Part shown: positions 1 through 2,846 of the stretch, piece by piece
How the letters are laid out: every line of letters starts with the position of its first letter
Numbering within the stretch: the first letter of the stretch is position 1
From: Spartobacteria bacterium
GTDB taxonomy: Bacteria; Verrucomicrobiota; Verrucomicrobiia; Chthoniobacterales; UBA10450
Assembly: GCA_003167555.1 (NCBI GenBank)
Contig: PMSN01000004.1
Span: 1 to 64,000 of the forward strand
DNA: 64,000 bases
Direction: 5' to 3'
The notes under the pieces: generated by a model
The model's database searches: none
Seen by the model: the letters and a program-made list of their open reading frames with translations, nothing else
Told to the model about the DNA's origin: nothing
Position numbers and translations under genes: made by a program

Positions 1-2358
1 CTACTTTCGTACCTGCTCGACTTGTAGGTCTCGCAGTTAAGCTGGCTTATATCCATATACTCGTCACCTGATTGCCAACCAGGTTGAGCCAACCTTCGTA
101 CTCCTCCGTTACTCTTTGGGAGGATACCGCCCCAGTAAAACTAGCCGGCTGCCAGTGTCCCTCCGCCTGATATAAGGCAAGAGGTTAGTTACTCCAATTT
201 CGAAGGGTGGTGTTTCATTGGCGACTCAGGAACCCCCAAAAGGGCTCCATCAAAGTCTTCCACTTACGCTAAGCATCAAAATCGAAACAACAATAACAGC
301 GTGTAGTAAAGGTGCATAGGGTCTTTCCGTCCTACTGCGGGTAGGCGGCATCTTCACCGCCACTACAACTTCGCTGAGCTCCTCGTTGAGACAGCGGTCA
401 ACTCGTTACACGATTCGTGCAGGTCGGAACTTACCCGACAAGGAATTTCGCTACCTTAGGACCGTTATAGTTACGGCCGACATTCACGGGGACTTCGGTT
501 CGAAGCTTCGAGCTTGCGCTCTAACCTCTTGCCATAATCTTTCCGCATTGGTCACGTGTCACACCCTATACGTTGTCTTTCGACTTAGCAGAGTGCTGTG
601 TTTTTGTTAAACAGTCGGTTGACCCATTTCACTGCGACCTCCAATAAAGGAGGCACCCCTTCTTCCGAAGTTACGGGGCTAGATTGCCGAGTTCCTTAAC
701 GAGGTTTCACTCACGCGCCTGAGTATACTCTACTCACCCACCTGTGTCGGTTTACGGTACGGGCAACCGTGGGAACATGTAATTGGTTTTCTTGATACAA
801 GTGTCAAGCAATCCACCTTGGCCGAGGCCTCAGCGTCCCCTTGCGGGACCGTCACTTTCAATCGACGGCTACTCTCTACTCATATGTCACAACTACACTT
901 AACCACAGCCGGTGCTGGAATATTAAACCAGCTGTCCATCGTCTACGCCCTTCGGCCTCGACTTAGGTCCCGACTAACCCTGGGAGGACGAACCTTCCCC
1001 AGGAAACCTTGGGTTTACGGCGGACAGGAATTTAACCTGTCTTGTCGCTACTCATGTCTGCATTCTCACTTGTAGAAACTCCACGGTCGCTTCCGCTTCC
1101 GCTTCGATGTCGCTACAACGCTCCCCTACCAATCCGGCTGGTCGAAACCAACCGTCTTCCAGAGCTTCGGTATACCGCTTATCGCCAATCATTATCGGCG
1201 CGAAATCACTCGATGAGTCAGCTATTACGCACTGTTTAAATGATGGCTGCCTCTAAGCCAACATCCTCACTGTCTAAGTAACTCCACATCCTTTCCACTT
1301 AACGGTATTTGGGCACCTTAGCTGCTGGTCTGGCATGTTTGCCTCTCGCGCGTGAAGCTTATCCCTCACGCACTGACTCCCGTGTTACACCCTGCGGCAT
1401 TCGGAGTTTGATTGAATTCGATACCCTGGTATGGGCTCTAGTTCATCCAGTGCTCTACCTCCGCAGGTCAGCACACGAGGCTAGCCCTCAAGCTATTTCG
1501 GGGAGAACCAGCTATCACCGGGTTTGATTAGTCTTTCGCTCCTACCCACAAGTCATCCCAGAAGTTTTCAACCTTCACGGGTTCGGTCCTTCAGTTGCGG
1601 TTAAGCAACCTTCAACCTGCTCATGGGTAGATCACCTCGGCTTCGGGTCTACTGCCAGCGACTATGGTCGCCCATTTCGGACTCGCTTTCGCTTCGCCTC
1701 CATCGCAGAACGACTTAGGCTCGCCACTGACAATAACTCGCAGACTCATTAAGCAAAAGGCACGCCATCACCGGTTGCCCGGCTTTGACACCTTGTAAGC
1801 ACATGATTTCAGGTACTATTTCACTCCGCTCACAGCGGTTCTTTTCACCTTTCCCTCGCGGTACTTGTTCACTATCGGTCGCCAATTAGTATTTAGACTT
1901 ACGCCGTGGTCGGCGTGGATTCATACGAAGTTTCACGTGCATCGTATTACTCAGGAAATCCCTAGGCGTGCGCGGATTTTCGATTACGGGTCTGTCACCC
2001 TCTTTGGAGCGATTTTCCATTCGCTTCATCTAATCGTTGCACTACCACATCGGGCTCCTACAACCCCACCAGCAAGCTGGTGGTTTGGTCTGTTCCGCTT
2101 TCGCTCGCCACTACTTACGGAATCGCTTTCGCTTTCTTTTCCTCCGGTTACTGAGATGTTTCACTTCACCGGGTGTCGCGATGTTTGTGCTATGTATTCA
2201 CACAAACTCGAGCAGGTGTTACCCCACTCAGGTTATCCCATTCGGAAATCCCCGGGTCACAGCGTGTTTACCGCTCTCCGAGGCTTATCGCAGTTAGCCA
2301 CGTCCTTCATCGCCTATTGGCACCAAGGCATCCATCATGTGCTCTTTGTAGCTTGATC
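1..2358 (-). rRNA. rrl: 23S ribosomal RNA, 3' part missing at window edge
   Basis: Large-subunit rRNA. The reverse complement carries landmark 23S words: GGATGCC near the 5' end, GGTGATAGCTGGTTCTC, the TAACTATAACGGTCCTAAGG block and GACCCTATGCACCTTTACT. Aligned to E. coli numbering from memory, the 5' end falls near 2358 and the left edge cuts the gene near E. coli position 2400, so about 500 nt at the 3' end lie outside. I see no large intervening sequence. All open frames across this interval are spurious. No 16S or tRNA lies upstream on this strand: rph begins at 2847 on the other strand, so this 23S is not in a normal 16S-23S operon. Confidence 0.97.
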
Positions 2359-2417
2359 AATCTGTAGAACGCCAAATCGTTTCCAATTCGACGCTCAAAC
2401 TTGATAACTGAAACTCT

Positions 2418-2446
2418 CGGACCGGGACATCTTACCTTCCCGGCCT
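2418..2446 (-). promoter_or_regulatory. Hairpin in 23S leader
   Basis: On the minus strand GGCCGGGA and TCCCGGTCC pair around a ten-base loop, about 60-90 nt before the mature 23S 5' end. That position suits a leader processing stem or an antitermination boxB-like element. On the plus strand it is followed by T-rich sequence but no gene precedes it, so a plus-strand terminator is unlikely. The role is inferred. Confidence 0.4.
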
Positions 2447-2785
2447 TTCTTTTCAGACTCAGCTCTTAAAAGTTGTACTTACTACCCTGTATGTAGATAT
2501 CAAAGAACCAGCCGTTCGCGCCCACTTTCAGCCCACAAAAAAACCCAATCTGATCTCCGGCGATAATTCACGTTGCCGTTCATCATGCCGGGACAAAATT
2601 GAGTTCCAATTTGCAGTCCCAAAAATAGGCGAGAACCAACTCTTTTCGTCTTGCGACTACGGGAGTCCCGCTTCAGGCGGGGTCAACAAGGTAGCCGTCG
2701 AAAAATGACCGTCAACCGGGAAAAACGATTTTTTTCGAAAAAGTTACATTTTTTCCGTTCGGACGGCCGGGACGAGAGAGTTTTC

Positions 2786-2840
2786 CGCGGATTCCGCAGA
2801 TTATTTATTCTGTCATCGGCGCTAATCTGCGTAATCTGCG
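2786..2840. repeat. Inverted repeat with CGCAGATTA words
   Basis: CGCGGATTCCGCAGATTA is followed, about 20 bases on, by TAATCTGCGTAATCTGCG, its imperfect reverse complement. It lies directly in front of the TTG start of rph. The word resembles dispersed intergenic repeats of environmental bacteria; only this copy is in the window. Confidence 0.5.
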
Positions 2841-2846
2841 AACGAT

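Follow-up and report, generated by a model that had tools for sequence, protein, structure and literature searches.

The locus analysed here raises the question of whether a 23S rRNA gene with no 16S rRNA gene upstream of it belongs to a genuinely divided rRNA set and, if so, how the division arose. The original prediction, made on the window, i.e. the whole stretch of 64,000 nt corresponding to bases 1-64000 of a 91,226-nt contig (C14), had described such a 23S gene and had supposed that it would need a private promoter in less than 500 bases. The evidence reported below points strongly to an rRNA set that is really split and fixed across the family of the host, with a separate 23S-5S unit provided with its own promoter, leader, stalk and terminator, where promoter, stalk and terminator are predicted from sequence and conservation. 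In what follows, f1-f13 indicate the families of the order Chthoniobacterales (Verrucomicrobiota) as grouped in the search database, f1 being that of the host. The features of the locus are as follows:

1-2358, minus strand: 5' part of the 23S rRNA gene, from the Rfam match; the 3' part of about 520 nt lies on contig C11 (L007:5418-5941, minus strand), with a 19-nt overlap.
2359-2485, minus strand: 23S-proximal leader, similar to the 3' portion of the spacer between 16S and 23S in linked relatives.
2486-2509, minus strand: candidate boxA (GTTCTTTGA) and 5' arm of a 24-bp stalk, from a pattern match at 2490-2508 and pair counts; junction of the chimeric leader.
2531-2548, minus strand: conserved TTGGGTTTTTTTGTGGGC element, common to the 16S leaders of families f3/f5.
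2591-2620, minus strand: conserved hairpin block GGGACTGCAAATTGGAACTCAATTTTGTCC, a 16S leader element elsewhere in the order.
2688-2715, minus strand: predicted 23S promoter TTGACG-N16-TACCTT, conserved in leaders, with a probable start near 2680.
2847-3608, plus strand: rph (RNase PH) reading frame, from the open reading frame and relatives, divergent from the 23S.

The Rfam LSU_rRNA_bacteria model matched the window at 1-2358 on the minus strand (model positions 1-2408 of 2925, 2131 bits), the rph frame starts at 2847 on the opposite strand, and the search of the 64,000 nt for RNA families revealed no 16S, tRNA or other family besides 23S, so that the absence of an upstream 16S was confirmed. 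Beyond the original prediction, we observed that the 23S is truncated at the window start, that the split is family-wide, that the 5S stays with the 23S and that the leader carries a scar. The match ends prematurely on its 3' side, and the window holds the 5' four-fifths of the gene; since the window starts at base 1 of C14, the cut is the contig end. The remaining portion (model positions 2390-2925, 590 bits) was found at the end of C11, whose last 19 nt are identical to window positions 1-19. Joined across the two contigs, on the basis of this overlap and of the relatives, the parts give a gene of 2863 nt with no large gaps.

The genome (4.2 Mb, 29 contigs, 98% complete) was then considered as a whole, as had been suggested with the prediction, which had regarded complete 16S-23S operons elsewhere as evidence against it. 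The search returned one 16S, on C20, one 23S and one 5S, on C11 behind the 23S, and no linked 16S-23S copy elsewhere in the 98% complete assembly. The sole 5S sits 301 nt beyond the 23S end, directly downstream and on the same strand, and is followed immediately by a terminator-like hairpin (L007:4998-4966, minus strand). Two minor features were seen in this region: an exact copy of the 18 nt that end the 5S lies about 135 nt after the gene (L007:4848-4865), beside another GC-rich inverted repeat, and an extra boxA-like TTCTTTGA lies between 23S and 5S (L007 near 5225-5240, minus strand), with a similar GTTCTTT in several relatives.

The single 16S is located at C20:135454-137014 on the minus strand, in the interior of a 176,459-nt contig, and simple arithmetic on contig sizes places it at least about 94 kb from the 23S under any contig order. 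From the single copies, the contig positions and this spacing we conclude that the 16S is unlinked, while 23S and 5S are linked. On the same strand, 412 nt past the 16S and after a terminator-like hairpin (L006:4807-4773, minus strand), comes a tRNA-Ala(tgc); a tRNA-Ile(gat) lies about 3.5 kb downstream of the 16S on the opposite strand. The interval between the two tRNA genes holds two reading frames, 481 and 487 aa long, that run opposite to the 16S and that we take to resemble M16 peptidases. Upstream, a site TTGACG-N16-TATCTT begins 540 nt before the 16S and is reported by the strict promoter scan. No relics of the boxA of the 23S leader are visible near the f1 16S; the boxA pattern has one match in most of the f1 genomes having it, and the matches that were located adjoin the 23S. 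In the 16S leader of another genome (L166, G048), four tandem TTGAC..TA promoter-like sites were observed upstream of the 16S.

To what extent is the split shared? The closest named relatives by rph are Spartobacteria/Chthoniobacterales MAGs from palsa and soil. On the downstream side of the f1 16S, no 23S occurred within the fetched 1.8-13 kb in any of the 16 genomes for which the 16S 3' end was fetched, and the same stretch carried tRNA-Ala in 13 and tRNA-Ile in 9 of them. Similarly, the fetched stretch lacked a 16S in 19/19 f1 genomes in which the 5' end of the 23S is present, and the 5S was next after the 23S in all 16 genomes for which the 23S 3' end was fetched. One relative, palsa_1382, has the complete 23S-5S within a 281-kb contig, with the same leader and divergent rph. 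Outside f1, in other families of the order, the order 16S-Ala-Ile-23S was found in all 11 genomes in which the junction is visible (G041, G043, G044, G048, G052, G073, G090, G093, G099, G100 and G212). At the level of rph loci, 24 of 80 showed 23S sequence; at the other 56 an early contig end, or a 23S elsewhere, is possible. The 12 f1 rows group as a single clade in the 16S tree (97/94), in which the f3/f5 rows are short and without a settled position. The simplest reading is a single split in the f1 ancestor, where the operon would have broken after tRNA-Ile and before the 23S leader. A curious conserved neighbour is rph itself, which in 16 of the 19 f1 genomes is divergent from the 23S at a distance of about 0.5-5 kb; RNase PH trims RNA 3' ends.

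We looked for the elements that could allow the 23S-5S unit to be transcribed alone. The sequence TTGAC is present in all 31 f1 leaders, about 80-100 nt upstream of the conserved hairpin block, and TTGAC-N17-TA in 30 of them (mononucleotide shuffles: mean 0.21, maximum 2), one leader being without the 16-nt spacing; since the 31 leaders are related, and two (L106 and L113) come from one MAG, the shuffles overstate independence. The -10 of the host, TACCTT, matches the consensus at 3/6 bases, and the site is weak when judged alone. Since a strict sigma-70 scan of 2300-2900 reported no promoter, the promoter claim rests on the comparison among leaders. Thus, the private promoter expected by the original prediction finds a conserved candidate 330 nt upstream of the gene, and is not seen by strict scanning of the single sequence. 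The leader folds strongly (z -5.07). In the leaders L181, L182, L107 and L113, from different genomes, GGCGGTC..GACCGCC palindromes fill hairpin slots of the 23S leader, as if dispersed repeats were tolerated there.

A boxA-like TTCTTTG, followed by ATCTACATACAGGGTAG, was found 135-250 nt before the 23S in 31/31 f1 leaders, and the linked relatives have the same boxA and arm between tRNA-Ile and 23S. We predict that TTCTTTG is a candidate boxA antitermination site, which may recruit NusB/S10. The complement of the stalk 5' arm follows the 23S at a distance of about 110 nt. The resulting 24-bp stalk had 95.5% of its cells paired in a count on 16/17 rows, 13 of them distinct, G044 being left out for arm insertions. 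Four pairs showed changes on both sides; covariation was 0.160 against a shuffle mean of 0.096, a value reached by none of 500 shuffles, and pairing fell to 50% or less when the partners were slid out of register. The host stalk has one A.C mismatch, and two neighbouring central pairs are each unpaired in 4/13 distinct rows. The RNase III model TIGR02191 scored over its cut-off in the host genome, and the enzyme is present in 54 of the 58 genomes searched, which led us to reject its loss as the cause of the split.

Taken together, these elements suggest how the unit may work. Transcription would most likely start at its own sigma-70-type promoter (2688-2715, minus strand) and would run via a structured leader with the boxA antitermination site, the 23S and the 5S to the terminator after the 5S. 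The pre-23S would be freed by RNase III cutting the 24-bp stalk, which boxA and the following leader bases could form with the post-23S sequence.

The leader also allowed us to approach the origin of the unit. The hairpin block, searched as GGGACTNCAAATT..CTCAATTTTGTCC, was found in 55/213 genomes of the order (f1 49/83, f3 1/1, f5 5/11), and its reversed control gave no match among the 213 genomes. Thirty loci were examined among the 61 matches: the block lies upstream of the 16S in 6/6 loci outside f1, and upstream of the 23S in 21 of the 24 f1 loci, the other 3 showing no rRNA. In the alignment, the f1 23S leaders are collinear with the f3/f5 16S leaders from the -35 box, via the block and a T-run, to boxA, and diverge there; the primary sequence of the block is near-identical between the two groups. 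The two sides of boxA were compared separately by local alignment against dinucleotide shuffles, with 12 of the 31 leaders, one of the three G049 leaders and 10 of the 11 linked spacers (G090 not used); an earlier version had used mononucleotide shuffles and one leader. On the left of boxA, the 23S leader scored above all shuffles in 72/72 comparisons when set against f3/f5 16S leaders, and in 2/120 against linked spacers; on the right, in 95/120 comparisons with linked spacers and in 1/72 with 16S leaders. The separate 16S unit was considered in five f1 genomes. Right of boxA its leader resembles 4/6 f3/f5 16S leaders, and left of boxA it gave no clear f3/f5 match (highest z 4.9, in one comparison) and no match to its own 23S leader. 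The leader matches, which switch partner at boxA, indicate that both f1 rRNA units are, as far as their sequences can tell, cut and rejoined at boxA. The 16S-23S linkage in f3/f5 themselves is not visible because their contigs break in the 16S, and the spacer query for it returned tRNA look-alikes only. Moreover, the rph/f1 23S locus showed no synteny with the rrn loci of other families that could have pointed to the ancestral locus.

A possible scenario is that the ancestral rrn operon had a boxA before the 16S and again before the 23S, and that recombination between the two sites removed 16S-tRNA-Ala-tRNA-Ile. The operon promoter would then drive the 23S directly, while the surviving 16S and its tRNAs would stem from a different place or copy and would depend on another promoter. 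In E. coli, boxA is described in two positions, one opening the operon and one ahead of the 23S (PMC10250234), and because of this double occurrence a boxA-boxA deletion is a simple route. The rescue of the 16S by a second operon copy is plausible, because G049 has three block-bearing leader copies and a Chthoniobacteraceae MAG has two rrn operons (PMC11596606). We consider this whole origin, boxA-boxA recombination with the 16S surviving elsewhere, moderately probable.

The idea that contigs were misjoined between 23S and rph, in a genome having in reality a normal operon, draws on the 29-contig assembly and its contig ends inside the 23S, and can nevertheless be given hardly any credit. In fact, the order 23S-leader-rph recurs in separately assembled relatives (rph on the fetched 23S stretch in 16/19 f1 genomes), a relative has its whole 23S-5S in one 281-kb contig, and the supposed join carries a conserved predicted promoter, boxA and stalk; a chimeric join between 2360 and 2850, which the original prediction had named as a finding that would speak against it, is contradicted by the same divergence and leader in independently assembled genomes. 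It could also be argued that the 23S is a decaying remnant and that the assembly lacks the complete operon, as rRNA operons often drop out of short-read assemblies. Against this, the 23S parts join to 2863 nt without large gaps, with 2131 and 590 bits, the single 16S is inside a long contig and the pattern is family-wide, making such a remnant extremely improbable.

More weight is due to the hypothesis that the 16S-tRNA segment was moved by one translocation or inversion, with no duplicate, acquiring a new promoter at the landing site while the 23S kept the operon promoter. The f1 16S leaders match the f3/f5 16S leaders right of boxA only, the promoter side being different, and the order tRNA-Ala then tRNA-Ile is retained behind the 16S in several genomes. 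However, it needs two breaks at or near both boxA sites, plus the capture of a ready-made promoter with the same TTGACG-N16-TATNTT layout, and, because multi-copy rrn exists in the order (G049 and the MAG of PMC11596606 mentioned above), loss from duplicates would be no harder. We therefore regard a translocation or inversion as rather unlikely. Finally, the likeness to f3/f5 16S leaders might reflect shared selection for an antitermination hairpin, gained independently before the 23S, instead of descent. The block forms a hairpin, which makes selection on structure plausible; on the other hand, the leaders match collinearly over the whole length between the -35 box and boxA, hairpin and T-run included, all 72 comparisons exceed every shuffle and the block is near-identical in primary sequence, so that we judge independent gain improbable.

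Returning to the boxA-boxA recombination, bacterial rrn operons have a boxA ahead of both the 16S and the 23S, and a deletion between the two sites could represent a one-step route to unlinked rRNA genes, in which the promoter is fused to the 23S, a functional 23S-5S unit is left behind and the loss of 23S-5S from a second copy fixes the split; to this more general proposal we would give an even chance. If true, a search of other unlinked lineages may reveal the same boxA scar, f1 being a family that preserves the junction.

Unlinked rRNA genes were reportedly described in bacteria and archaea by Brewer et al. in 2020 (ISME J), and the case studied here shares with that type a 16S far from the 23S-5S, a low copy number and an environmental, soil-type host. 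They are described in Planctomycetes and as more than 40% of environmental rRNA genes (PMC7825169), and in CPR (PMC8172020). The unlinked taxa of Brewer are presented in PMC7761764 as having fewer RNase III genes, whereas RNase III is kept here. According to the same paper, H. pylori (Iost et al. 2019) similarly has the 16S apart and a 23S-5S precursor matured by RNase III; by comparison, the leader found here is a chimera of 16S leader and spacer. Wolbachia and Buchnera likewise have a 23S-5S unit apart from the 16S, as cited in PMC8172020; these are reduced symbiont genomes, in contrast to the 4.2 Mb of the present one. In other Chthoniobacterales families, the linked rrn operons have the same boxA and stalk before the 23S, and the same tRNA-Ala and tRNA-Ile, but, unlike f1, keep 16S-Ala-Ile-23S contiguous. 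This Verrucomicrobiota case does not appear in the available part of PMC7825169, and a literature search on titles and abstract starts, with Brewer 2020 outside it, returned no Verrucomicrobiota family with this split, which is not proof of absence. Unlinked rRNA genes are thus already known; what is new is the lineage and the scar, the additions being a family-wide Chthoniobacterales case, the boxA junction and a stalk accompanied by a retained RNase III. A single order offers for comparison the state before (linked relatives), the state after (f1) and a junction that falls on a named functional element. As a consequence of the split, 16S-23S long amplicons are blind to f1 soil bacteria, and the amounts of 16S and 23S would have to be balanced from two promoters.

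Some observations concern the 23S genes of the relatives. Two bins (L274-L278, G186 and G152) contain two or three 23S loci each, some with their own rph, so that either the bins are mixed or true second copies exist. In L167, L178, L181 and L182 (G003, G023, G022 and G028) the 23S alignment breaks near query positions 190-292, 578-585 and 1707-1720; these breaks partly carry insertions of up to about 145 nt, which are absent in the gene analysed here and resemble intervening sequences.
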